Part shown: positions 12,000 through 41,941 of the stretch, one piece after another
Layout: every line of letters begins with the position of its first letter
Numbering within the stretch: position 1 is the stretch's first letter
DNA from: Tractidigestivibacter scatoligenes
Lineage (GTDB): Bacteria; Actinomycetota; Coriobacteriia; Coriobacteriales; Atopobiaceae
Direction: 5' to 3'
DNA length: 64,000 nucleotides
NCBI RefSeq assembly: GCF_001494635.1
Contig: NZ_LOJF01000009.1
Location: 62,001 to 126,000 of the forward strand
Notes under the pieces: generated by a model
Seen by the model: the letters and a program-made list of their open reading frames with translations, nothing else
Told to the model about the DNA's origin: nothing
Databases searched by the model: none
Position numbers and translations under genes: made by a program

Positions 12000-13289
12000 T
12001 TAGCCGCCAAAACCTCCGCCGATGCAGGCGTACACGTTTGCGTAGCAAACGTAGCTGCCCGGCACGGGTGCGTGGATCATCGTGGAGCCGCCGCAGTAGA
12101 TGGCGACATGGCCCGTCGAGCAAAAGATAACGTCACCGGGCGAGAGCACAGACTGATAGTTGGAGAGGTTGCAGTCCTTCCAGTTTCCGCGCGACTTCAT
12201 CTCGGCGATGAGGCCGGGAACGGAGGTGGCATATGAAGGCGTGGAGTAGCCCGCCATGTGATAGGCCGTTGCCACCAGGCCGCAGCAGTCAAAGCCGTCT
12301 GCGTTGGGACCGTAGTTCACACCTTGGGTCCAACGCTTGTAAGGGTAGCCGATGAACTGCGCAGCGTTTGCGATGACGCTGCTCGAGTAGGTCTTTGAGC
12401 CACCACCGCTGGAGCTAGAGGTGGAACCGCTGCTGGAATTCGAGCTGCTCCCAGAGCTCGACCCACCGCCGCTTGAGCTTGGCCCGCTGTTGGAGCTTGA
12501 ATTGGAGCTGCTGTTAGAGCTGGAAGAGCTGCTCGACGACTCGTTGTCAGAAGACTGCGATGAGGAGCCGGCTGTCGATGGCGTGACGGCGCCGTTGGCG
12601 CTCTCTGCTGTGGCCACTGCCGCAGCCACGCCACTTGTAGCGGCGCTCTCTTGCTGCGCTTCTTCCGCTTCCTTCGCAAGCTGCTCCTGCACGGCGGAAT
12701 CAAGGCTGTTGTAGTAGTCCTGTGCCTCGCTCACCTGGGCGGTGTAGTCATCAACGCTCTGCTGGGTGGCCTCGATCTTTGCCTCTTGCTCGTCCTGCTG
12801 GTTCTGGAGTTGCGCCTGCTGCTCGGACAGCTGGTTGGCAAGGTCCTGCACCTCGGAGATTGCCTCGGCGTCCGCCTCAGAGACCTTGTCAAGGTAGTAG
12901 ATGTTCGAGGAGAGCTCCTCGAAGGAGGCGGAGGACAGGATGAGGTCGAGCGCGCTAGAAGCGCCAGACTTGTACGAGCTCTTCATGCGTGCGCCCAAGT
13001 CCTGGCGCTTCTCGTCCAGCTGGGTTTGGGTGTCGGAAATCTGCTGGGTGGTTTGTTCGACCTGATATCGAATGTTCTCGAGGTCAACCTGGGCGTTCAT
13101 GAGCTCGTCCTGAAGCGAGGAGAGCGTGTTGCCAACGCTCTCCAGACGCTGACGGGCTTCCTCGAGCTGCGATTGGAGCTCCTCGCTCGTTGGCTCTGCC
13201 TGGGCGGTCTGGATGCCCGACATAAGGCCAAGCCACGTGGTGGAGATGGCCCCAAGAAAGAGTGCCCTGCGCGATATGTTTTTGGTCAC
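12000..13289 (-). CDS. Secreted NlpC/P60 peptidoglycan hydrolase with PcsB-like coiled coil (copy 1)
   Basis: The 429-residue exported protein probably cleaves stem-peptide bonds during cell separation. The N-terminus carries a twin-arginine-like signal (NISRRALFLGAISTTWLGL) ending near AQAEP. Residues about 32-200 form a coiled coil of the PcsB/RipC type, followed by a Ser/Gly linker and a C-terminal NlpC/P60 domain with catalytic Cys335 in FDCCGLV and a GHVAIYCGG histidine. The usual DCSG is DCCG here. GTG 13289 is chosen because GGAGGT lies six bases upstream; an upstream ATG at 13340 lacks a site. The coiled coil is nearly identical to part of the neighbouring paralogue. Confidence 0.9.
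   Translation of the reverse strand: MTKNISRRALFLGAISTTWLGLMSGIQTAQAEPTSEELQSQLEEARQRLESVGNTLSSLQDELMNAQVDLENIRYQVEQTTQQISDTQTQLDEKRQDLGARMKSSYKSGASSALDLILSSASFEELSSNIYYLDKVSEADAEAISEVQDLANQLSEQQAQLQNQQDEQEAKIEATQQSVDDYTAQVSEAQDYYNSLDSAVQEQLAKEAEEAQQESAATSGVAAAVATAESANGAVTPSTAGSSSQSSDNESSSSSSSSNSSSNSSSNSGPSSSGGGSSSGSSSNSSSGSTSSSSGGGSKTYSSSVIANAAQFIGYPYKRWTQGVNYGPNADGFDCCGLVATAYHMAGYSTPSYATSVPGLIAEMKSRGNWKDCNLSNYQSVLSPGDVIFCSTGHVAIYCGGSTMIHAPVPGSYVCYANVYACIGGGFGG
12871..13046 (-). repeat. Paralogous block A, about 90% identical to 14208-14383
   Basis: This 176-bp stretch encodes part of the coiled coil of NlpC/P60 copy 1. It aligns without gaps to 14208-14383, with 17 mismatches by my count, while flanking coding sequence has diverged. 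Most differences are at third codon positions. Confidence 0.85.
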
Positions 13290-13316
13290 GTCGTGACCTC
13301 CCTTGCTTTTACCAAT

Positions 13317-13338
13317 GTGGCTCCCTTTCGGGAGCCAC
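13317..13338 (-). terminator. Stem-loop between the two NlpC/P60 genes
   Basis: GTGGCTCCC (13317-13325) pairs with GGGAGCCAC (13330-13338) over a four-base loop. On the minus strand it lies after copy 2 and about 28 bases before the copy 1 start, so it could end the first message or sit in the leader of the second. No clear T-run follows. Confidence 0.5.
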
Positions 13339-13405
13339 ACGCTTTTGCATTTATAGTACCAGCACCGGCTATCAGACGGAACGCATCATGGCAAATGGCC
13401 ACAAG

Positions 13406-14611
13406 TTAGTACGAGCCGCCGCCATAGAAGCCGTAGATACCGCCTACGATAACGCCAGAAGAGGGGTTGGCAGCGTGGACGATCTGGCCATTGCCGAGGT
13501 AAATGCCCACGTGGCTGCCGCCGTACTCGAAGACAAGGTCACCATAGGAGAGCTGATCGACGCTCGTCTTCCAGCCACCGCTTGCCTTGATGGAGCTAAT
13601 CATCGAGTACGTGTCACGCCCGCGTGCGTAGCCATACACGTAGCAAACGAGGCCCGAGCAGTCAAAGGCGTTAGGGCCGGCAGCGCCCCACACATAGGGG
13701 TGGCCGACAAGTGCCAACGCTGCGGAGACTCCACCGCCAGAGGGCACGTTCGTGCTGCTGGAACCGCTGTTGGTGTTAGAGCTGTTGTTCGTGTTCGAGC
13801 TGTTGTTCGAATTAGAGCCGCTGTTAGTGTTGGTGTTCGAGTTGTTGTTCGTGTTGTTCGAGGTATTGGTGTTGGTGTTGCTCGAGTTGTTCGTGTTGCT
13901 CTCGGTGGCACCACCGCCATTGGAGCTGATGGTCTCCTGGGTCTGAATGGCCTGGACAACGGTGGCAACGGAGCTGGACTGTTCGGCCTCGGCTGCAGCA
14001 GCCGCCTCTGCCGCGAGCTGCGCCTGGACCTCCTCGTTGAGTGAGTCGTAATAAGCCTGGGCTTTCGCTACCTGGTTCTGGTAATCAGAGGTCTGTGACT
14101 GGAGACTATCCACCTGGCTCTGCTGGTCTGCCTGCTGCTGCTCGAGCTCGCTCTTCTGCTGCTCAAGCTGGTTCGAGAGCGACTGCACCTCAGAGATGGC
14201 GGCAGCGTCTGCCTCGGAGACCTTGTCGAGGTAGTAGATGTTAGAGGAGAGCTCCTCGAAGGAGGCAGAGGACAGGATGAGGTCGAGTGCGCTCGAGGAG
14301 CCGGACTTGTACGAGCTCTTCATGCGCGCGCCCAGTTCCTGGCGCTTCTCGTCTAGCTGGGTCTGCGTGTCGGAGATCTGCTGCTCGGTATTGGCGATGT
14401 CATAGCCTGTCTGCTCAAGCTCGGAAGTGGCGGAGGAAAGCTGATCCTGGAGAGAAGAGAGGGTTGCTCCAAGCGAGTCGAGCTTTGCAGATGCTGCAGA
14501 GAGATCATCCTCGGGGCTTGCCATGGCAACGGTGGGCGCAACGGAAAGCGCACACGGCGTGGCAAGGGCAAGAACCAATCCGGCAGTGATGATGCATCTT
14601 GCGTGGGTCAT
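13406..14611 (-). CDS. Secreted NlpC/P60 peptidoglycan hydrolase with PcsB-like coiled coil (copy 2)
   Basis: The 401-residue paralogue of the next gene downstream has a classical Sec signal (hydrophobic stretch near residues 6-28, cleavage around VAMAS), a coiled coil (about 35-215), an Asn/Ser/Thr-rich repetitive linker (about 230-290) and an NlpC/P60 domain with Cys318 in FDCSGLVC and a SHVGIYLGNG histidine. ATG 14611 has AAAGGA eight bases upstream; the ATG at 14641 would place that site inside the gene. The linker composition (Asn/Thr) differs sharply from copy 1 (Ser/Gly), while the coiled coil is shared, indicating tandem duplication with domain-specific divergence. Confidence 0.9.
   Translation of the reverse strand: MTHARCIITAGLVLALATPCALSVAPTVAMASPEDDLSAASAKLDSLGATLSSLQDQLSSATSELEQTGYDIANTEQQISDTQTQLDEKRQELGARMKSSYKSGSSSALDLILSSASFEELSSNIYYLDKVSEADAAAISEVQSLSNQLEQQKSELEQQQADQQSQVDSLQSQTSDYQNQVAKAQAYYDSLNEEVQAQLAAEAAAAAEAEQSSSVATVVQAIQTQETISSNGGGATESNTNNSSNTNTNTSNNTNNNSNTNTNSGSNSNNSSNTNNSSNTNSGSSSTNVPSGGGVSAALALVGHPYVWGAAGPNAFDCSGLVCYVYGYARGRDTYSMISSIKASGGWKTSVDQLSYGDLVFEYGGSHVGIYLGNGQIVHAANPSSGVIVGGIYGFYGGGSY
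14208..14383 (-). repeat. Paralogous block B, about 90% identical to 12871-13046
   Basis: This is the second copy of the 176-bp coiled-coil block, in the same orientation, 1,337 bp away. Its identity is well above that of the surrounding coding sequence, which is consistent with gene conversion or strong constraint. Confidence 0.85.
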
Positions 14612-14704
14612 TGCGTAGTCCTTTCGACGCTTGGAGACCATTCTACGTCAGGGACCGGTAAGCCGCATGGCTTTCCATACGATGGGCAAAAGGCTCGAAT
14701 GCAA

Positions 14705-25268: not shown

Positions 25269-27323
25269 ATGGATTCAAGGCTTGAACCACTGTTCACTCC
25301 GTGGAGCATCGACGGCTGCGAGATCAAGAACCGCATCGTCATGACGTCCATGGGCGGTACCAACATCTTTGGGTGGATGGAGAGAAACCACTTCGACCGG
25401 GACGGCGCCCGCTTCCTCATGGAGCGCGCGCAGAATAACGTGGGGCTACTCCTTCCCGGCTGCCAGCCCGTTTACAACCCCATCGGCGGCCAGTGGCTAG
25501 ACCAGAACCGCACCATGTACGAGGAGCTCAAGCCCTTCATGGAGGAGCTGCACGCCACGGGAGCCAAGATGTTCGTGCAGCTCACGGCTGGCTTTGGACG
25601 CAGCTTCACGGTGTCTGACTCCATGGAGGAGCTCTACACCAACCCGCTGCTGCGCGCGCTGTCAAAGCCCTTCCTGGACCTGGACAAGATCTGCGCCACA
25701 GCGTCCCCCTCGCCCAACCGTTGGTCGGACAAGGTCCCCTCACGCGAGATGACCATCGGTGAGATCGACCGGCTTGTGGAGGCGTTTGCCACCTGCGCAA
25801 AGATGCTGCGTGATGCCGGCGTGGACGGCGTGGAGGTGCACGCCGTCCACGAGGGCTACCTTCTCGACCAGTTCACCCTCCCCTACGTGAACCACCGCAA
25901 CGACATCTACGGCGGCTCGCGCGAGAACCGCTACCGCTTCCCGGTGCGCATTGTCCACGCCATCCACGACGCAGCAGGCGGGGACTTCCCCGTGTCGCTT
26001 CGCTACTCGGTGGTGAGCCGCACCAAGGGCTTCCGCGAGGGGGCGCTCCCCGGCGAGGACTACGTCGAGGTGGGGCGCACTATGGAGGAGTCCGAATGGG
26101 CCGCGCGCTACCTCACCGACGAGGGCTACGCAATGCTCAACTGCGACAACGGCACCTACGACGCCTGGTACTGGGCTCACCCGCCCATCTACATGCCCGA
26201 GAACTGCAACCTTGCAGACGTCGAGCACATCAAGGGCTTTGTAGACGTTCCCGTGGTGTGTGCTGGCCGCATGGACCCCTATGTGGGCGCACAGGCCGTG
26301 GCCGAGGGCAAGCTTGACGCAGTGGGCTTTGCTCGCCAGTTCCTGGCCGACGGCGAGTGGGTCACCAAGCTTGTCGAGGGGCGCGAGAAGGACATTCGCC
26401 CCTGCATCTGCTGCCACAACGGCTGCTTCAACATGTGCCACTACAAGGGGCACGCAAACACGCAGACGCTCGAGGACTCGCTGCATCTCTCGCGTTGCGC
26501 GGTGAACCCTGAGACCATGCAGTACGAGAAGCACCACATCCGCCCCACCACCACGCCCCGGCGCGTCGCCGTGGTGGGTGGCGGCATCGGCGGCATGGAG
26601 GCTGCGCGCGTGCTCGCGCTTCGCGGCCACTGGCCCGTCATCTACGAGCAGTCAGAACATCTGGGCGGCGTCTTCCGCGAGGCCGCGTCCGCGAGCTTCA
26701 AGGGCAAGCTCCGCGACCTTCTCGCCTGGTACGAGCGGCAGATGAAGGAGCTTGGCGTCGAGATCCACTACAACCGCGAGGTCATCGACGTGCAGGAGCT
26801 TGACGAGGACTATGCCATCGTGGCCACCGGCGCCACGCCCAAGCGCCTGCCTGTCCAGGGCTTCGAGCGCGCGATGGACGCCCTTGACTACCTCGATGGC
26901 GCCAAAGTTGGTCAGCGCGTAGTGGTTATTGGCGGCGGCCTCACCGGCTGCGAGGTGGCGCTCGAACTTTACCTCTCCGGCAAGCAGCCAGTCATTGTGG
27001 AGATGAAGGACGACCTGGTGGCGCAGGACGGTGTGTGCCTTGCCAACTCAAGCTACCTCCGCGAGTTCTTTGCCTGGAAGAAGGTTCCCGTCTATCTGGA
27101 GTCCACGGTGCGCGCCATTGGCGAAGACTGGGTGCAGATCTCCCACAAGGACGGCACGCTCGAGCGCATCACGTGCGACTCGGTTGTGAGCGCCGTTGGC
27201 TACACGCCCGATCCCGTTTCGCAGCCAAACGGTCGCCACGTTCAGCTTGTTGGCGACTGCGCCGGCGTAGGCAACTTGCGCTCGGTCATTTGGCGTGCCT
27301 ACGAGGCTGCTTCGCGCGTTTAG
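25269..27323 (+). CDS. FAD/FMN/Fe-S enoate reductase, BaiCD/FadH-type (old yellow enzyme family)
   Basis: The 684-residue protein has the three-part layout of 2,4-dienoyl-CoA reductase and bile-acid enzyme BaiCD: an FMN-binding TIM barrel (about 1-370) with VEVHAVHEGYLLDQF and NDIYGGSRENRYRF; a [4Fe-4S] site of Cys379, Cys382, Cys386 and Cys410; then FAD (VVGGGIGGMEAARV, near 435) and NAD(P) (VVIGGGLTGCEVALEL, near 550) domains. Such enzymes reduce activated C=C bonds anaerobically. The HAVHEGYLLDQF form is typical of BaiCD-like enzymes. The next genes, 35 bases on, encode both aconitase X subunits, suggesting that the substrate is the dehydration product. Codon choice is more G+C-rich than upstream genes. 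Confidence 0.9.
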   Translation: MDSRLEPLFTPWSIDGCEIKNRIVMTSMGGTNIFGWMERNHFDRDGARFLMERAQNNVGLLLPGCQPVYNPIGGQWLDQNRTMYEELKPFMEELHATGAKMFVQLTAGFGRSFTVSDSMEELYTNPLLRALSKPFLDLDKICATASPSPNRWSDKVPSREMTIGEIDRLVEAFATCAKMLRDAGVDGVEVHAVHEGYLLDQFTLPYVNHRNDIYGGSRENRYRFPVRIVHAIHDAAGGDFPVSLRYSVVSRTKGFREGALPGEDYVEVGRTMEESEWAARYLTDEGYAMLNCDNGTYDAWYWAHPPIYMPENCNLADVEHIKGFVDVPVVCAGRMDPYVGAQAVAEGKLDAVGFARQFLADGEWVTKLVEGREKDIRPCICCHNGCFNMCHYKGHANTQTLEDSLHLSRCAVNPETMQYEKHHIRPTTTPRRVAVVGGGIGGMEAARVLALRGHWPVIYEQSEHLGGVFREAASASFKGKLRDLLAWYERQMKELGVEIHYNREVIDVQELDEDYAIVATGATPKRLPVQGFERAMDALDYLDGAKVGQRVVVIGGGLTGCEVALELYLSGKQPVIVEMKDDLVAQDGVCLANSSYLREFFAWKKVPVYLESTVRAIGEDWVQISHKDGTLERITCDSVVSAVGYTPDPVSQPNGRHVQLVGDCAGVGNLRSVIWRAYEAASRV

Positions 27324-27358
27324 TTGGGGGAATCACGAGAAGGAAGGGAGGTCAGCCC

Positions 27359-28630
27359 ATGGAGCTGACCCAGGAGGAGCGTGACATCCTCGATGGCAAG
27401 CAGGGAGAGACGCTTGCCAAGGTAATGAGAACGCTCGTTGAGTACGGAGAGGCCTTTGGCGCCACGCGCATGGTCAAGGTGACGGCGCCTGGTCACCTGG
27501 TGACCAGCTTTGGCATCTCGATCCTCGAGGCGAACTTCCGCCTCATGGACGAGCTCATCAAGGCCGGGCTTAAGACCAAGGAGCCCTTCACTGTAGACCC
27601 GCGTCCCATCGACAACGCAGATGTCCCTGCTAGCGTGGTCCAGAAGGTCGTGGGAGCGGTTACGTATGGTAAGCAGGACGCTTACGAGCGCCAGCTGCGT
27701 GCCGTTGGCCTCAAGGACGAGAACGCCTTCACCTGCGCCTGCTACCTGCCCGAGGTTGGCAACGCCCCAAAGCGCGGCGACGTCCTGAGCTGGGCCGAGT
27801 CCTCCGCCGTGGTCTATGCCAACTCTGTCCTGGGCGCGCGGTGCAACCGGAACAGCGGATTTATCGATCTCTTTGGCAACATCGTGGGCGAGGTCCCGGA
27901 GTTTGGGCTGCTCACCGATGAGGGACGCAAGGCCACATGGATCGTGGACGTGGAGTGCACCAAGAGGCCCGAGGCGCAGGTGCTGGGCTCTGCCATTGGC
28001 ATGAAGGTGATGGATGAGGTCCCCTATATCCGTGGGCTTGACCAGTGGCTGGGCTGCACGCTTGACGATGCCGCAAAGGCCTACCTCAAGGACATGGGGG
28101 CCGCCACGGCGTCAAACGGCGCCGTGGGCCTCTACCACGTGGCAGGCATCACGCCCGAGGCGGCAGACATGGGCGAGTCCCTCATCGCAGAGGGCACGAA
28201 GCACTATGTGATCGACGATGCGGAACTTGAGCGCGTGAAAGCGAGCTACCCCAACATCTGGAAGAAGCCCGACGCCCGCCCGCGTCTGGCGTTCATCGGC
28301 TGCCCGCACTGCTCGCTTGACCAACTCAAGGACTGGGCGCATCGCATTCCCGAGGCCCTCGCCCGCGAGGGGCGCACGCGCGTTGCGGTGCCCACGGTTG
28401 TCTCGAGCGCACCCGATGTGCTTGCAGCCTTTGACGGCACGCCAGAGAAGCGCAAGCTCCTGGCCACAGGCACCAAGCTCACCTACATCTGCCCGCTCAT
28501 GTACATGGATAACCCCGCAACGGACCTGCCGGTAGTGACGTGCTCCAACAAGCTGCGCACGTACACGAGCGCGCGCTACTTTGACGAGGACGACCTGCTT
28601 CGCATCATCGCGAGGGGAAGGATCGACTAA
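27359..28630 (+). CDS. Aconitase X catalytic (large) subunit, DUF521
   Basis: Aconitase X enzymes are Fe-S (de)hydratases; known members act on cis-3-hydroxy-L-proline or, in archaea, mevalonate 5-phosphate. The 423-residue protein shows the DUF521 features: CACYLPEVGN (Cys126, Cys128), ESSAVVYANSVLGARCNR (Cys162), a GCPHCS motif (Cys315, Cys318), and late cysteines 378 (ICPLMYM) and 395. Several of these should hold the cluster. ATG 27359 has GGGAGG seven bases upstream; the open frame begins earlier but overlaps the OYE gene out of frame. It overlaps the small-subunit start by one base (TAATG). No proline racemase, pyrroline reductase or mevalonate gene is adjacent, so the substrate may be new. 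Confidence 0.92.
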   Translation: MELTQEERDILDGKQGETLAKVMRTLVEYGEAFGATRMVKVTAPGHLVTSFGISILEANFRLMDELIKAGLKTKEPFTVDPRPIDNADVPASVVQKVVGAVTYGKQDAYERQLRAVGLKDENAFTCACYLPEVGNAPKRGDVLSWAESSAVVYANSVLGARCNRNSGFIDLFGNIVGEVPEFGLLTDEGRKATWIVDVECTKRPEAQVLGSAIGMKVMDEVPYIRGLDQWLGCTLDDAAKAYLKDMGAATASNGAVGLYHVAGITPEAADMGESLIAEGTKHYVIDDAELERVKASYPNIWKKPDARPRLAFIGCPHCSLDQLKDWAHRIPEALAREGRTRVAVPTVVSSAPDVLAAFDGTPEKRKLLATGTKLTYICPLMYMDNPATDLPVVTCSNKLRTYTSARYFDEDDLLRIIARGRID

Positions 28631-29079
28631 TGGCTGAGAAGACCTTCAGGGGGCGCGTCGTTGTTGGCGGTGCCGTGAGCGCAAAGGCTCTGGTAAGCCA
28701 TGGTGGCTTCAACACGCTGGCAAGCTACCAGCAGCCGCTCATCCTAAAGAACGTAAAGGCGCCCTGCTCCGACCAGAACAACCCCGACCTCTATAAGAAG
28801 CCGCTCCAGGGGGCAGCAATCTGCCTGCCGCAGACCATAGGCTCCACCACGGGCGGCATGGTCCTCATGTGCGCGTGCGATATGGGCGCGGGTCCGGCAT
28901 GCATGCTTTTCTCGAAGCCCATCGACCCCATTGCGGCAGCGGGAGCCATACTTTCCAAGAACTGGACGGAGCACCCGTTTGTCGTGGTTGACCAGTTGGG
29001 CGACGAGTTTCTCGACTACGTGCATGACGGCATGGACGTGAGCGTGACCGAGGATGGAACCGTTACTATAACGGGATGA
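28630..29079 (+). CDS. Aconitase X swivel (small) subunit, DUF126
   Basis: The 149-residue protein is the small swivelling domain that completes the aconitase X active site. It has GGAVSAKALVSHGGFN near the N-terminus and the conserved LPQTIGSTTGGMV loop, whose Ser72 matches the catalytic base position in the family. The ATG overlaps the large-subunit stop by one base, guaranteeing balanced synthesis. It closes the operon; a strong hairpin follows at 29147. Family membership is clear, substrate is not. Confidence 0.92.
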   Translation: MAEKTFRGRVVVGGAVSAKALVSHGGFNTLASYQQPLILKNVKAPCSDQNNPDLYKKPLQGAAICLPQTIGSTTGGMVLMCACDMGAGPACMLFSKPIDPIAAAGAILSKNWTEHPFVVVDQLGDEFLDYVHDGMDVSVTEDGTVTITG

Positions 29080-30972: not shown

Positions 30973-32373
30973 ATGGGGAGTAAGGAAGACACAGCAACAG
31001 CAAAGTATCGGCAGATGACTGAGGAGCCCGTAAAGCCCCTCATCCTCACGCTTGCCGCTCCCTCGATCGTCTCCAACCTTGTGACCAGCATCTACAACCT
31101 CTGCGACACCTTCTTTGTGGGATCGCTTGGGACCTCCGCCGAAGGCGCCATTGGCATCTCGTTCGTAGTCATGACCGCCATCCAGGCCGTAGGCTTTGGC
31201 ATGGGACAGGGCACCGGCAACGCAATCTCGCGCTATCTGGGCGCAAAGGAGCGGGAACGCGCCTGCATCATGGCAACCAATGGCCTAGCGACCACGCTTC
31301 TTCTCGGCACGCTCATCGCCATTGTGGGCAACATCCTCATCGAGCCCATCTGCCTGGTGGCAGGTTCGACCGAGACCATCCTCCCCTACGCCAAGACCTT
31401 CGTGGGCATCATTCTTCTGGGCGCACCCTTCATGTGCAGTTCGCTCATGCTCAACATGCAGTTGCGCTTCGAGGGAGAGGCGCTCCATTCCATGATTGCC
31501 ATCATGACAGGCGCCCTCATCAACATTGGCCTTGAGCCGCTCCTCATCTATGGGGCTGGTCTGGGCATAGCAGGCAGCGCCACCTCTACGGTGATCTGCC
31601 AGTTCATCAGCTTTTGCATTCTTGTCTGGCAGATCCAACATGTGGGGATAACGCCCCTCTCGCCCAAGTGGCTGAGAAGGCCCGCTCGCGCCATGGTCAC
31701 CAAGATCGTGAACGGCGGTCTTCCCTCCTTTGTGCGCCAGTGCATGCTCGGTGTGGCTACCACGCTCCTCAACGAGGCGGCGCGTCCCTTTGGCGACGCA
31801 GCGATAGCCGCGCTCGCCGTGGTGCAACGCATCACGAGCATTGGCAACTACGTTCAGATTGGCTTTGGCCAGGGCTTTCAGCCGGTGGTTGGCTACAACT
31901 ACGGCGCCAAGCTCTACGAGCGCATTAGGGCTGGCTACCACTTTGCGGTGCGCACGGCATTCATTGCCGTAGCCCTGGTAGGCGTTGTGACCTTTGCCCT
32001 GGCACCGCAGCTTGTGGGGCTCTTTTCGAGCGACACCGAGGTTGTCGATATAGGTACGCTCGCCTTGCGCGTGGAGAGCTTCACGCTCCCGCTCACCGGC
32101 ACCGCGATGATCACCAACTTCCTGCTTCAGACGACCGGCCGCATGTGGCGGGCAACCATCCTTGGCGCTTGCAGGCTGGGCCTTGTTCTTGGCCCCGTGG
32201 TGCTGGTGCTACCGCCCCTGCTGGGGCTTCTCGGCGTCCAGCTGGCGCAGCCCGTAACCGATATCATCACGTTTTTGGTGACCATCCCCATGGCGTGGTC
32301 AATCCTGCATGAGCTTTCTGCCGAGGAGCGTGAAAGCAAGCGCACGAGCGAGGCTGCCATGCCGGCCAAGTAG
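30973..32373 (+). CDS. MATE-family multidrug/cation antiporter
   Basis: The 466-residue protein has twelve hydrophobic segments and MATE hallmarks: LAAPSIVSNLVTSIYNLCDT at the start of the first helix pair, VGSLGTSAEGAIGISF, and the half-repeat after residue 240 (PSFVRQ, VGYNYGAKLYERI). It likely exports drugs or metabolites using sodium or proton gradients. No ribosome-binding site lies before ATG 30973 nor before ATG 31015, and a -10-like TACCAT is seven bases upstream of the former, suggesting leaderless translation. Its stop is nine bases from that of the convergent amidase gene. Confidence 0.9.
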   Translation: MGSKEDTATAKYRQMTEEPVKPLILTLAAPSIVSNLVTSIYNLCDTFFVGSLGTSAEGAIGISFVVMTAIQAVGFGMGQGTGNAISRYLGAKERERACIMATNGLATTLLLGTLIAIVGNILIEPICLVAGSTETILPYAKTFVGIILLGAPFMCSSLMLNMQLRFEGEALHSMIAIMTGALINIGLEPLLIYGAGLGIAGSATSTVICQFISFCILVWQIQHVGITPLSPKWLRRPARAMVTKIVNGGLPSFVRQCMLGVATTLLNEAARPFGDAAIAALAVVQRITSIGNYVQIGFGQGFQPVVGYNYGAKLYERIRAGYHFAVRTAFIAVALVGVVTFALAPQLVGLFSSDTEVVDIGTLALRVESFTLPLTGTAMITNFLLQTTGRMWRATILGACRLGLVLGPVVLVLPPLLGLLGVQLAQPVTDIITFLVTIPMAWSILHELSAEERESKRTSEAAMPAK

Positions 32374-32382
32374 CGCTAAACC

Positions 32383-33630
32383 TTAGCTGTGAAGTGCCGC
32401 CGCCATGCGAGAGAACCACTCATCCGCGGCGCCCTTGGGAAAAACCGTGATGTAGCTCTCGAAGTACCTGCCGTACTCGGAGAGGTCCACCGCATAGCCA
32501 AGATAGCCGTCGACATAGCCGCATACCAGCAAGGGGGCGGTCGAGGCATCTCTCAGCTGCTTTCCAAAAGAGAAGACGACCTCAGAGGGAACAAGGGCAA
32601 GCCTCACGCATCCAAGGTCGACTAGCGTGGCCGTGGCATCGAGGCAAATCCGGGGTATTGCCAGCTTTGCCTCAACCATGCCAAGCATCTGACGAAGGTC
32701 GTCCTCTCGGGTGGCAATGCCAGAAGCCTTGGCAGCAGCTGGGTCTTTGAGAAGTCCAGTGAGCATGCGACGGGCAGAGAGGAGCGTCTCGTCCTCTGCC
32801 GGCACGTAGTCGAGATGCACAGGCACCTCTCTGGTGTCCCCAAGTGCAATCGAGGCGGTTTGCAACGTTGCAGCGGCAAAGCGCCGACCAATCTCTCCGC
32901 CAATGCGCTCAACCTCGTCGAAGCCCTCGCCGCGCCGCGTGAACCTCGTGCTTGAATCTCCGGCGTCGCCAACGAGGACAATCGCATGCGAACCAGTAAG
33001 CTTCTCGTACTTTACGCGTAGAGCCCCTACGTAATCCGTGGAAAGCAGGTGGTTCTCCCCATGGAGCACAGTGGGATGACAGGCAACGTGGAGGATGTCG
33101 ACGCGCTGGGAACCGTCAGCCGAGGTAAGGCTGAGGACGGTTCCGGTTGTGTCGCAACCGGCGCTGGCACCGTTACGGTTTGTAAAGAGCCCTGAGAGGT
33201 CGCACGTACCAAGCCGAGCTGTTGCGTTCCCCTGGCCTTCCTGCTGATCCTTGCACTTCTCGGCACTTGCGGCCATCGCGTCGAGAAGCGCCTCGATGAA
33301 CGAAGGATCTGGTGGACACCCTGAGTCTGCGAGCCTGCTTACCTTTGGGCCAGAGTGGGTGTGGATTGCGGCCACGTGCACGTTGTCTTTGGGAAGACCT
33401 GTGCGCGAGGTAATTGCCTGCCGAGCCTCCTCCGCAAGTGACGGCTCGAGGAAGAAGATGTCCGCAACGCAAAGGCAGAACTGGCGAAACAGTTGCCCCT
33501 CCCCATCGGAGATAAGCACGCAGCGTACGGTGATGTTGTCATGAACTCCTGTGGCCTCTCGCCGGCCGTAGCCGTCCATAGGGCAAGGGACGGCCGGGGT
33601 TATGTCCTGCTGAGCGTAAGTAACGTGCAT
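32383..33630 (-). CDS. Neutral ceramidase-like zinc amidase, cytosolic
   Basis: The 415-residue protein matches the catalytic half of neutral/alkaline ceramidases: an N-terminal QQDITPAVPCPMDGYGRR, a zinc-type HTHSGP (His90, His92), and ACHPTVLHGENHLLSTDYVG. A GDAGDSSTRF stretch may hold the catalytic serine. Unlike secreted ceramidases it has no signal peptide and no C-terminal Ig-like domain. ATG 33630 begins one base after the PTS stop, so it is translationally coupled to a sugar permease. I infer that it hydrolyses an amide, for example an N-acyl group, on the imported phosphorylated compound; true ceramide is unlikely for a cytosolic enzyme. The actual substrate is unknown. Confidence 0.75.
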   Translation of the reverse strand: MHVTYAQQDITPAVPCPMDGYGRREATGVHDNITVRCVLISDGEGQLFRQFCLCVADIFFLEPSLAEEARQAITSRTGLPKDNVHVAAIHTHSGPKVSRLADSGCPPDPSFIEALLDAMAASAEKCKDQQEGQGNATARLGTCDLSGLFTNRNGASAGCDTTGTVLSLTSADGSQRVDILHVACHPTVLHGENHLLSTDYVGALRVKYEKLTGSHAIVLVGDAGDSSTRFTRRGEGFDEVERIGGEIGRRFAAATLQTASIALGDTREVPVHLDYVPAEDETLLSARRMLTGLLKDPAAAKASGIATREDDLRQMLGMVEAKLAIPRICLDATATLVDLGCVRLALVPSEVVFSFGKQLRDASTAPLLVCGYVDGYLGYAVDLSEYGRYFESYITVFPKGAADEWFSRMAAALHS

Positions 33631-33631
33631 C

Positions 33632-35026
33632 TTAGGCTGCCTTTGTCGCCGTTTGCTCCGCTCTCTGCTCGGCAGCATCGCCCTTGCTTTCAAACCCAAA
33701 GGCAAGCACGAGCACAAGCGCAATGACAAAGCTTACTGCCGCCTCTGCCAGGAACCATCCAATTGGTGCAAACGAGGCAAGCGTGAACACGTTGACCAGG
33801 AAGTTGAAGACAATGAGCTGAACATTGCCAATGCCGCCAACGGCCCCGCCAATCGCTCCCGCCACAACAACCATGGGGATGAGCTTGCGGTACCTCATGA
33901 TGACGCCATAGATGAGGGGTTCGTTAACGCCAGAGAGAATGCCAGAGATGAGGTAGGAGCCAACGAGGGTCTTGTAGTCCTTGTCTTTGGTGCGCAGGAA
34001 GACGCCGAAGCTCACGCCAAGGCATGCAAAGACGCTGGCTGCAGCAAGGGCAAAGATCGGGTCTCCGCCGTTGGCGTTGAGGTTTGCAAGGATGATGGGG
34101 ATGATTGCCCAGTGCACGCCAAAGATAACGAGAAGGCCCCAGAACCCGCCCATCACGATGCCAGCGACAACCATATTGGCGCTCACGAGGTAGTTGATGG
34201 CGGCGCCTGCGCCATTTGCGACGGCGTTGCCGATGGGGCCGAGGACCAGCGCGGTGAGGGGTACCATCACAGCCAGGTCAATTGCGGGAACGAGGAAGCT
34301 CCGTAGGTTTTTGGCCAGATGGGCGTTGAGGAAGCGCTCGAGGAAGCTTGTGACCCACACGGCGAGGAGGCTCGGAACGATGGTTGCCGAGTAGTCCACG
34401 GCAACAATGGGGATCGAGAAGAAGCTCTTGGGGTCGCCGGTCTGAAGCGCTGTGAAGTTGGGTTCAAGGAGCGCAGCGCCGATAATTGCGCCAACGAGGG
34501 GCGTAACGCCTAGCTTCTTGGCCGCATAGAAGCCAACAAAGATTGGCAGGAAGTAGAAGATCGCGTGACCGGCGGCATACCAGACGGCAAACTGGCCGCT
34601 ATCAGCGGGACAGACGCCAAGTCCCGCAAGAATGATGAGCACGGCTGTAAGGATGCCAGCACCAGCAAAAATGGGCAGAAGCGGCGTGAGAGCGCCAGAG
34701 ATGTAGTCGAAGATCCTCGCCATCACCGAGCGGTGGTCTTTCTCGGCAGGCGTGGGCTCTTCTGGTGCTTGCGGGGCCGAGGCGTCGAGAAGGCCCACAA
34801 GCGGCGTGTATACGGTCTCGACAGTCGGGCCGATGACCACCTGGAGCTGTCCGCCCTTCTCGACTACGCCGAGGATGCCCTCCGTTGCCTTGAGCTTATC
34901 GGCGTCTGCCCTACCGGCATCCTTGAGTGTGAATCGCAGTCTGCTTGCGCAATGCGTCACACCTTCTACGTTGCTTGGACCACCAACGAGTTCGAGAATG
35001 CTTTGCGCAAGCGCCTTTTCGTCCAT
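33632..35026 (-). CDS. PTS transporter EIIBC, glucose/beta-glucoside superfamily
   Basis: The 464-residue permease fuses EIIB (about 1-85; phosphorylated Cys26 in VTHCASRLRF) to EIIC (about 105-450) of the glucose-glucoside superfamily. EIIC starts IFDYISGALTPLLPIFAGAG, as in beta-glucoside, sucrose, trehalose and MurNAc permeases. There is no EIIA domain and no separate EIIA gene nearby, so a shared EIIA-Glc-like protein is needed. GGAGG lies five bases before the ATG. The amidase gene follows after one base. Specificity cannot be read out, but an amide-containing sugar is suggested by that neighbour. Confidence 0.9.
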   Translation of the reverse strand: MDEKALAQSILELVGGPSNVEGVTHCASRLRFTLKDAGRADADKLKATEGILGVVEKGGQLQVVIGPTVETVYTPLVGLLDASAPQAPEEPTPAEKDHRSVMARIFDYISGALTPLLPIFAGAGILTAVLIILAGLGVCPADSGQFAVWYAAGHAIFYFLPIFVGFYAAKKLGVTPLVGAIIGAALLEPNFTALQTGDPKSFFSIPIVAVDYSATIVPSLLAVWVTSFLERFLNAHLAKNLRSFLVPAIDLAVMVPLTALVLGPIGNAVANGAGAAINYLVSANMVVAGIVMGGFWGLLVIFGVHWAIIPIILANLNANGGDPIFALAAASVFACLGVSFGVFLRTKDKDYKTLVGSYLISGILSGVNEPLIYGVIMRYRKLIPMVVVAGAIGGAVGGIGNVQLIVFNFLVNVFTLASFAPIGWFLAEAAVSFVIALVLVLAFGFESKGDAAEQRAEQTATKAA

Positions 35027-35274
35027 CTCTGCCTCCGCGTTTGAGCTTTGGGTTCCTTAGATGCATCCATGCTAGCGCTGTGTGTGATCGGCGGAGCTTT
35101 TTTGTATCAACCATGTAACCATGCCCGTGTCATCGGACAGGCGTCTGCCGCTGAATCTGTGTGACGCAAAACGAAAGAGTCGGCATCCAGGACCGTCTTC
35201 ATCCCAATTGCGCCTATCATGGGCCGCTGTGAGGAAAACGCGCATTACGTGCCAGTGCATGGAGGCATTGAGTC

Positions 35275-36474
35275 ATGGAAACCTTTGATGAGCTTTACTA
35301 TCGGGAGCCCTACACGCGAGAGTTCGATGCCTCTGTTGTGTCCTGCGAGCCTGCAGATGAGGGGTTTGCAATCGAGCTTGACCAGACCGCGTTTTATCCC
35401 ACAGGCGGCGGACAGCCGGGCGATAGGGGCACGTTGAGCGTTGGTACGGATGAAGGCCAGGTTGTGGCCCACGTGCGCGAGGCGGTACCCGGAGAGGGCG
35501 CGGGCGAGGTTATCCATCTCTCGGACATTTCGCTTCCCGTTGGTGCTAGCGTCCATGGCTGCCTTGACTGGACCTGGCGGCGCGACAACATGGATGCACA
35601 CACCGGCGAGCACATTGTCTCGGGCATCGTACATGCCCTCTTTGGCTACAACAACGTTGGCTTTCACATGGGCGAGCGCTGCATCGAGGTCGACTTTGAC
35701 GGCGTCCTCACGTCCGATGACGCGCTCGACGTAGAGCGGCGCGCCAATGCGGCAATTCGCGAGGACGTGAGCGTAGAGGCGCTTCTCCCCTCTCCCGCCG
35801 AGCTTGCTGAAATGGACTACCGCAGTAAGAAGGACCACGACGGCCAGATTCGCGTGGTGAGGATTGCCGGCGTGGACTCCTGCGCCTGCTGCGGCACGCA
35901 TGTGTCTTCCACCGGTCAGGTGGGGCTCATCAAGATCTTGCGGGTGACCACCAAGAAGAAGCGGACCCGCCTTGAGCTACTTTGCGGCCGCCGCGCGTTG
36001 GAGGCATGCGAGGCTGCCATGGCGGCACTACGTGACACCAGCAACTTCCTCACGGTTGGAGACGAGGAGGTTCCCGAGGCGGTACGTCGCCTCTCTACCG
36101 AAAGGGATGACCTCAAGCACCAGCTCAAGCAAGCTGGTCGCAAGCAGATTGACCAGTATGTGGCAACGTTGGCACCCGAGGGGTCGCTGGCTGTGTGCTG
36201 CCTTCCCGAGCTGGACGTTGAGGACCTCCGCTACCTGTGCGAGCAAGTCCTCGAGCGCACGGACGCAACAGTTTGCGCTGGCATTTCGCCCGTTGAAGAT
36301 TGCCCCCGGCTTGCGTATGTGATTGCGTCTACTGATGCTGACCTGAGACCAGCATGCAAGGAGCTTAACCGCAGGCTTGATGGCCGTGGCGGCGGAAAAG
36401 CCCAGCTGGTTCAGGGCAGTTGGGCGTCATCCAGCGATGCAGCCCTGACTGCAATCCGCGACGTGCTGGGATAG
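35275..36474 (+). CDS. Alanyl-tRNA editing protein, AlaX-like with DHHA1 domain
   Basis: AlaX proteins clear Ser- or Gly-mischarged tRNA-Ala in trans. The 399-residue protein has the AlaRS second additional domain with TAFYPTGGGQPGDRG, zinc ligands HTGEH (His109, His113) and CCGTH (Cys205, His209), a coiled segment (about 265-300) and a C-terminal DHHA1-like domain with RLDGRGGGKAQLVQGS. This is the long AlaX type, resembling AlaRS without its aminoacylation core. GGAGG precedes the ATG by nine bases. It is divergent from the PTS gene, with 248 bp between; no operator is recognised there. Confidence 0.9.
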   Translation: METFDELYYREPYTREFDASVVSCEPADEGFAIELDQTAFYPTGGGQPGDRGTLSVGTDEGQVVAHVREAVPGEGAGEVIHLSDISLPVGASVHGCLDWTWRRDNMDAHTGEHIVSGIVHALFGYNNVGFHMGERCIEVDFDGVLTSDDALDVERRANAAIREDVSVEALLPSPAELAEMDYRSKKDHDGQIRVVRIAGVDSCACCGTHVSSTGQVGLIKILRVTTKKKRTRLELLCGRRALEACEAAMAALRDTSNFLTVGDEEVPEAVRRLSTERDDLKHQLKQAGRKQIDQYVATLAPEGSLAVCCLPELDVEDLRYLCEQVLERTDATVCAGISPVEDCPRLAYVIASTDADLRPACKELNRRLDGRGGGKAQLVQGSWASSSDAALTAIRDVLG

Positions 36475-39034: not shown

Positions 39035-41941
39035 TTACGCGTTCTCCTCACGAGACTCGTCGCTTGAGTTGCCAGTGTAGGGGTGCGTTCGGTTGAACTC
39101 TTTGTGCGTGCGGTTGTACTCGCGACGCTTCTCGCGCATGATCTTGGCCTCCTCCGAGCCAGAGTTTGCCACGATCTTCACGGCGCGCTTGATTGCGTAG
39201 CTCGCAAGGCCTCCCACCTTGTCCTCGGCCACGCGCATGTCGGTCATCTCGGGGTGGTCGCGGTAGAGGTGGATGGCGTCGAACTTACAGCGGGTGGTGC
39301 AGATGCCGCAGCCAATGCACTTGTTGGGGTCGACAACGGACGCGCCGCAGCTCAGGCAGCGCTTGGTCTCGATGGCCACCTGCTCGGCCGTGAGCGTGCG
39401 GTGCGTGTCGCGGAAGCGGTCGGCACCCTCGGTGTCCATGCCCTCCTCCTGGCGGCCTTCATTGTCGTACGAGTCGATAAGAAGGTCGTCCTTGTCGAAC
39501 TCAAGGTAGTTGTGGCGATCGCGGCCAATGGTCATGCTCGCACCTTCCTGCACGCGGCGGTGCAGCGACTCGGCGGCATAGTGGCCGGCGGCAATGGCGT
39601 CAATCACGAACTTGGGGCCAGTGAGGACGTCACCGCCCACAAAGATGTCCTTGTCTGCCGTCTGGAACGTGAGGGCGTCTGCCTGCGGGTAGTTGCCGTG
39701 ATGGAAGGTGACCGAACGGCCGTCGAGAAGGCCGCCCCACTCGATGGCCTGGCCAATGGCAAAGACCACCTGGGTGCAGGGCACGGTGATGGTCTCGTCC
39801 TCATTGTAGAGCGGCGAGAAGCGCTTGGTCTTGGGGTCGATGACCTGCGTGCAGCGCTTGAAGACGACGCCCTTCACATGACCGGACTCGTCGACGAGCA
39901 CTTCCTTGGGGCCCCATCCGTTCTGAACGGTGACACCATCCTCGAGCGTCTCGGCAATCTCTGCGTTGGTGGCGGGCATCTCGTCGCGCTGCTCGAGCGA
40001 GACCATCGTGACAGTGGCGGCACCACGGCGCTTGGCGTTACGCGCGCAGTCGACGGCCACGTTGCCGCCGCCAACCACCACAACGTCACCGGACATGGCG
40101 GGGTTGCCCTTGGCCATGGAGTCCTCGAGGTAGTGCACGGCAACGTCCGTGCCCTCGGCGGTGTCGCCGGGGACTCCGGGGCGCCTGCCGCCCTGGCAGC
40201 CCACGGCCACGAAGAATGCCCGGAAGCCCTGCTCACGCAGCTGATCGAGAGTCACGTCGCGGCCAACTTCGACGCCGCAGCGAATCTCGACGCCCAGACT
40301 CTTGATGATCTCGACCTCGGCGAGAAGCACGTCCTTCTCGAGCTTGTAGGACGGGATGCCGTACATCATCATGCCGCCGGGCTGCTCGTGCTTCTCGAAC
40401 ACGACGGGCGAGTAGCCGAGAAGGGCCAGGTAGTACGCGCAGGAGAGACCTGCGGGACCAGCACCGATGATCGCAATCTTCTGGTCGAAGTGGTCGTGGA
40501 CCGAGGGAACAGCGCGGTTGGGCACGGCGTGCTGGGCCTGCGCAAGATCGTAGTCGGCGACGAACTTCTTGACCGCATCGATGGAGACGGGCTGGTCAAT
40601 GGTGCCGCGCGTGCACGCGTCCTCGCAGCGCTTATTGCAGATGCGACCACACACGGCAGGGAACGGGTTCATGGTACGGATGAGCTCGACGGCTTCCTGG
40701 TACTTGCCCTCCTTGGCCTTCTGGAGGTAGGCCTGCACGGGGACGTGTGCCGGGCAGGCGGCCTTGCAGGGGGCAGAGCCCGTGGGCCAGGTGTTGTGCA
40801 TGCGGGCAGTGTCGCGGTAGTTCTCGTCCCAGGCGTACTTGCCCCAGTGGATAGCGTCGGGAAGGATGGCGCGCGGGTACTTGGGCTGCTCACCGTTTGC
40901 GCGGCAAAGCTTCTGGCCCAGCTTCACGGCGCCGGCCGGGCAGGACTCAACGCAGAGGCCGCAGGCCACGCAGTTCTCCGGCGTGACCTTGGCCGTATAC
41001 GAGGAGCGTGAGAGGTTGGGCGTGTTGAAGAGCATGCTCGTGCGCAGGGCGTTGCAGATCTTCACGTCGCAGTTGCAGATGTCGAAGATCTTGTTCTCGC
41101 CGTCGATGTTGGTGATCTGGTGGACAAAGCCGTTGTCCTCGGCGCGCTTGAAAATCTCAAGCGCCTCCTCGGTGGTGATGTAGTGCGCGCGGCCCGTCTC
41201 AACGGTGTAGTCGGCCATATCGCCAACCTGGATGCACCAGTCGTCCGGGTCATCCGCACAACCCTCGCCAAGCTTCGTGCGAGAGTAGCGGCAGGAGCAA
41301 ATGCCTGCCGAAATGTGGCCCTCGTACTTCTTGAGCCAGTAGGAGATGCGCTCGAGCTTGACGGCCTCGTTCTGGAAGTTGACGGCCTTCTCGACGGGAA
41401 TCACGTGCATGCCGACGCCGTCGCCTCCTGGCGGGACCATCTGCGTGATGCCAGCGAGCGGGATGAAGGTCATGCGCTCGAAGAAGTTCGCGACGGCGGG
41501 GTTCTTGTCGATGCGGTCCTTGCTCGAGTTGAAGAGCTCTGCAGAGCCGGGGACAAAGAACGGCAGGCGCCAGCGCTTGATGCGCGGTGCATCCGCTATG
41601 GGGCCGTCATCGTTGTAGTGGTCTCCGTAATCGTACTCGAGGATGCCAATGACGCTCATCTGGTCGAGGAGCTCCTGCAGGTGGGCGGGCTCAATCTCGG
41701 GCGCCAGGGCCATCATCTGGTCAAAGTCGTAGAACTGGCGAAGCTTCATACGGTTGCCAAGGTCAACCATCTCGTCGGTGAGGACCTCCTTGAGGCCCCA
41801 GTACTCGGGATCGTCGGTCTTGACGCCGCCAATCTTGTGCTTCACAACATCAGTGATCTTGCGACCAAGCTTAGCCACGGCAGCATTGCGCTCAGCCTCG
41901 TTCTGATAGATGGAGTGCTGCGTCTTAAACTGTTCCGGCAT
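39035..41941 (-). CDS. Large Fe-S flavoprotein, GltD/NfnB-like core with extra N- and C-terminal Fe-S domains
   Basis: The 968-residue protein combines: an N-terminal region of about 310 residues with paired cysteines (ICSCRYSRTKLGEGC; ICNCDVKICN); a [4Fe-4S] site at Cys324, 327, 330 and 334; a GltD-type N-terminal cluster domain from about Cys392; FAD (IAIIGAGPAGLSCAYYLAL, near 495) and NADPH (VVVVGGGNVAVDCARNAKRR, near 615) motifs; and a C-terminal ferredoxin segment (about 862-890; CLSC, CIGCGICTTRC). The core oxidises NAD(P)H and passes electrons along the clusters, as in NfnB, a flavin-based bifurcating enzyme. It lies between hypB (three-base gap) and hypA (no gap), so it is probably linked to hydrogenase or formate metabolism. 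Partner and direction of electron flow are unknown. Confidence 0.85.
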   Translation of the reverse strand: MPEQFKTQHSIYQNEAERNAAVAKLGRKITDVVKHKIGGVKTDDPEYWGLKEVLTDEMVDLGNRMKLRQFYDFDQMMALAPEIEPAHLQELLDQMSVIGILEYDYGDHYNDDGPIADAPRIKRWRLPFFVPGSAELFNSSKDRIDKNPAVANFFERMTFIPLAGITQMVPPGGDGVGMHVIPVEKAVNFQNEAVKLERISYWLKKYEGHISAGICSCRYSRTKLGEGCADDPDDWCIQVGDMADYTVETGRAHYITTEEALEIFKRAEDNGFVHQITNIDGENKIFDICNCDVKICNALRTSMLFNTPNLSRSSYTAKVTPENCVACGLCVESCPAGAVKLGQKLCRANGEQPKYPRAILPDAIHWGKYAWDENYRDTARMHNTWPTGSAPCKAACPAHVPVQAYLQKAKEGKYQEAVELIRTMNPFPAVCGRICNKRCEDACTRGTIDQPVSIDAVKKFVADYDLAQAQHAVPNRAVPSVHDHFDQKIAIIGAGPAGLSCAYYLALLGYSPVVFEKHEQPGGMMMYGIPSYKLEKDVLLAEVEIIKSLGVEIRCGVEVGRDVTLDQLREQGFRAFFVAVGCQGGRRPGVPGDTAEGTDVAVHYLEDSMAKGNPAMSGDVVVVGGGNVAVDCARNAKRRGAATVTMVSLEQRDEMPATNAEIAETLEDGVTVQNGWGPKEVLVDESGHVKGVVFKRCTQVIDPKTKRFSPLYNEDETITVPCTQVVFAIGQAIEWGGLLDGRSVTFHHGNYPQADALTFQTADKDIFVGGDVLTGPKFVIDAIAAGHYAAESLHRRVQEGASMTIGRDRHNYLEFDKDDLLIDSYDNEGRQEEGMDTEGADRFRDTHRTLTAEQVAIETKRCLSCGASVVDPNKCIGCGICTTRCKFDAIHLYRDHPEMTDMRVAEDKVGGLASYAIKRAVKIVANSGSEEAKIMREKRREYNRTHKEFNRTHPYTGNSSDESREENA

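Follow-up and report, generated by a model that had tools for sequence, protein, structure and literature searches.

Known ceramidases of the neutral-ceramidase fold cut amides, and the enzymes of Pseudomonas aeruginosa (2zws) and human (4wgk) are the closest described relatives of a putative hydrolase encoded in the Tractidigestivibacter scatoligenes genome, here called CER. The likeness extends to the whole catalytic-domain fold, as predicted for CER, and to the zinc ligands and the HxH and NR motifs. CER differs in its low identity (~20%), in the absence of a C-terminal domain and of a visible export signal, in four extra residues (R229, R232, E239 and R242), and in its cytosolic operon setting beside a gene of the phosphotransferase system (PTS). 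NagA/AgaA occupies the pathway place that we propose for CER, the deacylation of a sugar phosphate after PTS import; the two are unrelated, however, and the only NCBIfam match of the window's CER is to the ceramidase model NF041649, with none to TIGR00221. NagA moreover coexists with CER in genomes and at times in operons. YdjC/ChbG of chitobiose PTS operons is similar to CER in that a deacetylase gene is coupled to a PTS, although the protein family differs. On the transport side, beta-glucoside EIIBCA (TIGR01995) and MurP-type EIIBC share the EIIB-EIIC domain order of the permease beside CER, here called EIIBC, which in contrast to beta-glucoside EIIBCA has no EIIA domain and falls below the equivalog cut-offs; MurP has no EIIA domain.

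Both the fold and the logic of importing, phosphorylating and then deacylating a sugar are already known, while their combination is undescribed in the literature searched: an open-access search returned no report linking the ceramidase-fold family to PTS or amino-sugar operons, and the available portion of a study of GalNAc pathway genes in Erysipelotrichaceae (PMC8063399) does not mention a ceramidase-like gene.

Gene pair and permease

The window (the whole 64,000-nucleotide stretch of DNA analysed) is part of a 2.47-Mb genome, and the features of the gene pair within it are listed in Table 1. The preliminary description had placed the start of CER one base past the EIIBC stop, which reading the sequence confirms; an alternative, longer open reading frame would begin at a TTG at 33729, but homologues favour the ATG at 33630. 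Next to CER lies a MATE transporter gene (PF01554) and next to EIIBC a gene for an AlaX-like tRNA-editing protein (PF07973), and because both flanking genes lie on the plus strand the unit probably consists of two genes only. Scans of positions 32300-35320 gave zero promoter matches and one terminator-like match, on the plus strand, against 2.7 expected. No amino-sugar gene is found inside the window operon, and the genome itself encodes NagB and a free-standing EIIA.

Table 1. Positions of the EIIBC-CER pair and of selected CER residues in the window
Feature	Position	Strand	Description
PTS EIIBC	33632..35026	-	464 aa; Glc superfamily, beta-glucoside-like; without EIIA domain
CER (ceramidase-fold, putative hydrolase)	32383..33630	-	415 aa plus stop (32385-32383)
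EIIBC/CER junction	33628..33634	-	TAA stop 33634-33632, one G, ATG start 33630-33628; read from sequence
HTHSGP motif, residues 90-95	33346..33363	-	H90 and H92; profile alignment to 2zws
H185 in HPTVL motif (residues 185-189)	33076..33078	-	Opposite ceramidase H204
S227 and R229, R232, E239, R242	32905..32952	-	Active-site serine position and CER signature
E350	32581..32583	-	Opposite ceramidase E411
Y379	32494..32496	-	Opposite ceramidase Y448

Matches to PF02378 (100.1 bits) and PF00367 (49 bits), both above their cut-offs, identify EIIBC as a Glc-superfamily PTS permease. Its best NCBIfam model is TIGR01995, at 412 bits against a cut-off of 614.7, and the Pfam scan found no match to the EIIA domain PF00358; with that score and without that domain, EIIBC falls outside the beta-glucoside EIIBCA family. 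The MurNAc PTS model ranks seventh, at 149 bits. Because EIIBC lies below every equivalog cut-off, the imported sugar cannot be read from its sequence.

Predicted fold and active site of CER

CER matches PF04734 at 39.1 bits, above the Pfam gathering cut-off of 32.1. An AlphaFold2 model built from 31 aligned sequences has a mean pLDDT of 91.4, and a Foldseek search with it returned, at E < 0.001, only the P. aeruginosa and human neutral ceramidases. Structural alignment in VIA-align gave Z 39.2 and an rmsd of 2.7 over 378 residues for 2zws and Z 37.0 for 4wgk; after structure-library rows with Z of 9 or less, which cover ~100-150 residues, had been set aside, the good matches were ceramidases only. 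CER is accordingly modelled, on the strength of these comparisons, with what we predict to be the neutral-ceramidase catalytic fold. The missing C-terminal domain that had been noted earlier is borne out, since the alignment stops at residue 485 of the P. aeruginosa ceramidase, and by eye (judged without a predictor) the N-terminus holds no hydrophobic stretch. Classification of CER as a true neutral ceramidase was rejected, as it scores 21.1 bits against the NF041649 equivalog, whose cut-off is 1200.

Both the HTHSGP and the HPTVL motifs of the preliminary description were located in the sequence (Table 1). Profile alignment sets H90 opposite H97 of the Pseudomonas ceramidase chain, whose H97, H204, E411 and Y448 we take to be the zinc ligands. 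H90, H92, R152, H185, E350 and Y379 are conserved among CER proteins and likewise in all six canonical ceramidases compared, and H90, H185, E350 and Y379 are almost invariant across 4 group-A, 8 group-B, 15 group-C2 and 93 further CER proteins, with a single exception at H90 among the 93. S227 aligns to the ceramidase serine; this position is Ser in the window protein, in group A (4/4) and in C2, Gly in group B (8/8), and Ser in 76 and Gly in 8 of the 93 further proteins. The zinc and serine positions are therefore retained in the window's CER, and the active-site comparison with neutral ceramidase does not refute the earlier proposal.

A second set of residues distinguishes CER from canonical ceramidases. 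R229, R232 and R242 are Arg in 31/31 rows of the A2 alignment and E239 is nearly invariant; among the 93 further proteins, R229 is Arg in 82 (Lys in 5), R232 is Arg in 78 (Lys in 7), E239 is Glu in 83 and R242 is Arg in 78. The signature is absent from all six canonical ceramidases, which have N, Y, S and Y/F/E at these positions. We propose, from this sequence pattern, that the signature arginines may contact a phosphate or sugar.

Paralogues called C1, found beside the C2 form of CER (for example at L043:3241-4416), have Phe in place of H92 and Gln in place of H185 in 8/8 cases checked. This is a degenerate or altered metal site retained in the operon, and C1 is perhaps a partner subunit.

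Conservation of the pair and linkage to PTS genes

CER matches occur in 22 of 140 genomes of the bacterial family. The window-type CER is present in four of the eight same-genus genomes searched (G000, G118, G119 and G120), each time adjoining EIIBC. The pair is intact, with its arrangement conserved, in three Olsenella-group species, while in the fourth species (G120) EIIBC and CER are truncated together. Relative to the nearest species dN/dS is 0.21 for CER and 0.18 for EIIBC, and relative to the next species it is 0.13 for CER. Given intact copies in three species, a conserved arrangement and dN/dS of ~0.13-0.21, the pairing exceeds what chance would be expected to leave.

Beyond the genus, 41 of 44 named related loci have a PTS gene no more than 3.7 kb from CER (on the same strand in 38; the exceptions are L071, L084, which is at a contig end, and L087), a fraction that is inflated because the search patterns behind these loci derived from PTS-linked relatives. 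Over these loci and the broader set described below, the type of PTS differs, with Glc, mannose, lactose/chitobiose and NagE-like systems all represented. Group-B CER genes sit within mannose-family PTS operons, most of which have an upstream sigma-54/PRD (LevR/DagR-like) activator; the gene order is EIIB-EIIC-EIID-CER-EIIA in 8/10 loci, and EIIA precedes CER in L058 and L065. Group-C loci, from clostridia, Lucifera, Collinsella and Bifidobacterium choloepi, contain an Amidohydro_2 gene, the degenerate paralogue C1, CER (C2) and EIIBC. At L168 EIIBC is replaced by a lactose-family EIIC, and CER is retained together with the Amidohydro_2 gene and a second paralogue, which scores weakly. The adjacency whose absence had been named as grounds for refutation is thus retained far beyond the genus.

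A wider search, by profile or Pfam and organised by taxonomic order, matched 20/392 genomes in the order that contains Konateibacter (where six matches are full-length secreted ceramidases), 10/295 in that of Facklamia, 16/225 in that of Clostridium neonatale, and 77/196 in that of an Erysipelotrichaceae metagenome-assembled genome (G144), where up to 9 matches per genome indicate a large expansion. The broader set comprised 94 loci, of which 93 had a CER call (CER was absent from the gene calls of L151, which was dropped) and 79 remained after dereplication at 70%; the export-type, C1-like L107 had been excluded beforehand. This 79-locus set is skewed to top-scoring Erysipelotrichales matches (60/80 loci of one search batch), and its operon counts are lower bounds because the longest-ORF gene caller overlooks some genes where G+C content is high. 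Of the 79 loci, at least 48 have a PTS gene no further than 3 kb from CER, and at least 20 have SIS, NanE, NagA or NagB no more than four genes away; one or the other is found in at least 61, and neither in the remaining 18.

The Pfam families of 113 adjacent same-strand neighbours include EIID (14), SIS_2 (14), PTS_EIIC (11), EIIA-man (10), NanE (3) and EII-Sor (2). PTS_EIIC appears twice among 113 control genes from the same loci, and the 25 control families listed include none of SIS_2, EIID, EIIA-man or NanE. PTS components thus account for ~37/113 adjacent neighbours, assuming one family per protein, versus 2/113 controls. Peptidase-family genes (M81, creatinase/prolidase-like and M20) also adjoin some CER genes. 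Six of the 79 dereplicated loci (L134, L136, L118, L120 and others) share a DUF34/NIF3-type gene within the CER operon.

Amino-sugar and possible acid-handling neighbours

The preliminary description had suggested a check for neighbouring sugar enzymes, and in relatives NanE, NagA, NagB, SIS isomerases and YdjC do recur beside CER, together with PTS genes. The L150 operon reads NanE-EIIC-EIID-EIIB-EIIA-NanE-CER-NagB (NanE at 240 and 214 bits and NagB at 277, all above a cut-off) and has no NagA. NagA is likewise absent from the operons at L183 (activator, man-PTS EIIA-D, CER, NanE, SIS) and L185 (man-PTS EIIA-D, NanE, CER, SIS, RpiR). L163 combines NanE, a NagA-like gene (156 bits, below cut-off), PTS and CER. 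At L094 CER is accompanied by an AGE-like epimerase (171 bits, below cut-off), SIS, NagA (270 bits, above cut-off) and, by eye, a NagB-like gene, and L095 likewise has the epimerase, SIS, NagA and NagB-like genes with CER. L181 holds GntR (by eye), SIS, CER and a NagE/PtsG-like EIICB.

At L180, L184 and L143, CER occurs with a YdjC/ChbG-like gene and a lactose-family (chitobiose-type) PTS; since YdjC/ChbG and CER are found together, their steps are probably distinct. Lactose-PTS/CER loci (L143, L145, L180 and L184) also contain AtuA (PF07287) with a ferredoxin-like partner, L184 a CoA-transferase pair, and L143 (and, by eye, L145) a 3-hydroxyacyl-CoA dehydrogenase. These neighbours, present in a few loci, suggest that the acid half of the substrate may be used too, which would account for the insufficiency of NagA.

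Place of the window protein in the CER tree

We estimated a quick tree of 97 CER rows, which has some long branches and from which L098 and L102 were left out. The window's CER and two Olsenella orthologues fall in a nine-row set with SH-aLRT support of 95. The set also holds L146, L154, L156 and L171, which have a beta-glucoside-type EIIBC and/or GH1 (with an M81 gene in L156 and L171), and L172 and L173, which have a lactose-family EIIC. Five PTS labels mapped on the tree require 22 changes versus 49.5 in shuffles; PTS type is clustered on the CER tree, yet has switched repeatedly. From its tree neighbours, glycoside-type import with an acyl group is to be expected for the window, and we expect an amino-sugar substrate to be less sure for its CER than for the man-PTS relatives.

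Proposed function and alternative explanations

One explanation for these observations, towards which we lean modestly, is that EIIBC and CER form a catabolic unit in which CER deacylates a PTS-imported, phosphorylated acylated sugar or amino sugar. Relying on EIIA, HPr and EI encoded outside the pair, EIIBC would import and phosphorylate the acylated sugar; the likeliest candidates are N-acylated amino sugars and glycosides that contain them. CER, as a cytosolic zinc hydrolase, would strip the phosphorylated sugar of its acyl group, probably by amide cleavage, with its invariant arginines holding the phosphate, and the amino-sugar phosphate would pass to central metabolism via deaminases and isomerases (NagB, SIS). 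The basis for this reading is the gene layout, the predicted fold, the zinc and serine positions, the Arg/Glu signature, and the recurrent association with amino-sugar genes and with PTS of four types; from it we infer that CER is active as a hydrolase, that an amide bond is cut and that the substrate is phosphorylated. Counting against it are the coexistence with NagA, the 18 loci in which neither kind of neighbour was found, the glycine that group B has in place of the serine, and the window operon's lack of amino-sugar genes. The acyl group would presumably often be something other than acetyl. A bolder version, which we regard as possible rather than probable, holds that CER is the signature enzyme of a widespread, undescribed gut PTS module, a phosphate-recognising N-deacylase for amino sugars with non-acetyl acyl groups. 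The sugar half would pass to NagB or SIS enzymes and, in some operons, the freed acid to the products of the CoA-transferase, AtuA and 3-hydroxyacyl-CoA dehydrogenase genes, while paralogues, of which a genome may have up to nine matches, would serve different acylated sugars, each paired with a PTS of its own.

The role of NagA bears directly on the acyl group. The earlier suggestion of N-deacylation of an imported sugar phosphate stands in part: the neighbours fit an acylated amino-sugar phosphate, whereas the role of a plain N-acetyl deacetylase is weakened by NagA, which is encoded in the window's genome (278 bits), is detected in 58/58 CER genomes at E <= 0.001 (above cut-off in 57/58), and shares an operon with CER in L078, L094, L095 and, below cut-off, L163. 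CER is therefore not a simple NagA replacement, and such replacement as its sole role was rejected. That CER itself performs the NagA step, as a non-homologous N-acetyl-hexosamine-6-phosphate deacetylase where the operon has no NagA, would suit L150, L183 and L185, whose operons combine PTS and NanE with either NagB or SIS; given the NagA genes elsewhere in the same genomes and the three shared operons, we consider it very unlikely. A different bond is at stake if CER cuts an ester: an aryl glycoside or acylated sugar phosphate would be O-deacylated after import, giving an ordinary sugar phosphate for which NagB is not needed. The beta-glucoside-type EIIBC and GH1 genes of the window protein's nearest relatives (L146, L156), a tannase-like gene near two group-C type loci (tannase_B at 617 bits in L050, by eye in L039), and the lack of an amino-sugar gene in the window operon agree with ester cleavage, but the recurrence of NanE, NagA, NagB, SIS and YdjC beside CER in other loci, and the cleavage of amides by known ceramidases of this fold, make it fairly unlikely.

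The peptidase-family neighbours, for their part, also fit a peptide-like amide. CER might act on a muropeptide or aminoacyl-sugar phosphate after its import and cleave an amide of the peptide type, for instance the lactyl-alanine bond in a phosphorylated MurNAc-peptide, as would accord with the M20 and M81 genes adjoining some CER genes, the NagK-like kinase and M20 (by eye) in L100/L103/L105, the RpiR/MurR-type regulators at CER loci, and the absence of EIIA from the window's EIIBC, as in MurP. We judge this distinctly improbable, as the MurNAc model is only the seventh best for EIIBC and the SIS proteins scanned are PRK02947, a MurQ-type annotation not having been returned for them. Genuine ceramidase activity of CER, on sphingolipids or other lipids, with chance alone placing it beside a PTS gene, is scarcely credible; the predicted fold and metal site are those of neutral ceramidase, but the C-terminal domain is absent, no export signal is visible by eye, and PTS neighbours are enriched over the control.

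If deacylation of an imported sugar phosphate is indeed what CER does, then the neutral-ceramidase fold is also a recurrent intracellular sugar-phosphate deacylase, beyond its use as a secreted lipid enzyme; many 'ceramidase' annotations in gut Firmicutes and Coriobacteria would be mislabelled, and such bacteria would be predicted to use acylated sugars outside the known NagA route. The CER pairings point to an overlooked step in the breakdown of acylated sugars by gut bacteria, and because most CER genes here have a transporter, the substrate should be findable by growth and transport tests.

Other genes in the window

Several further genes in the window were recorded. A small BFD-like [2Fe-2S] protein (PF04324; 37531-37836, plus strand) with a very His-rich N-terminus lies near hypA and a hypB-like gene, and possibly has a part in nickel handling; the same two genes adjoin one for an iron-sulphur flavoprotein of 968 aa (39035-41941, minus strand), half of which is glutamate-synthase-like. 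At 25269-29079 on the plus strand, an OYE-type flavin oxidoreductase gene precedes the two genes of a split aconitase X (catalytic PF04412, swivel PF01989), and these genes are, by eye, conserved in related Olsenella loci. By eye, two similar tandem genes at 12000-14641 on the minus strand encode proteins in which a coiled-coil N-terminus is joined to an NlpC/P60-like end by a low-complexity Ser/Asn linker.
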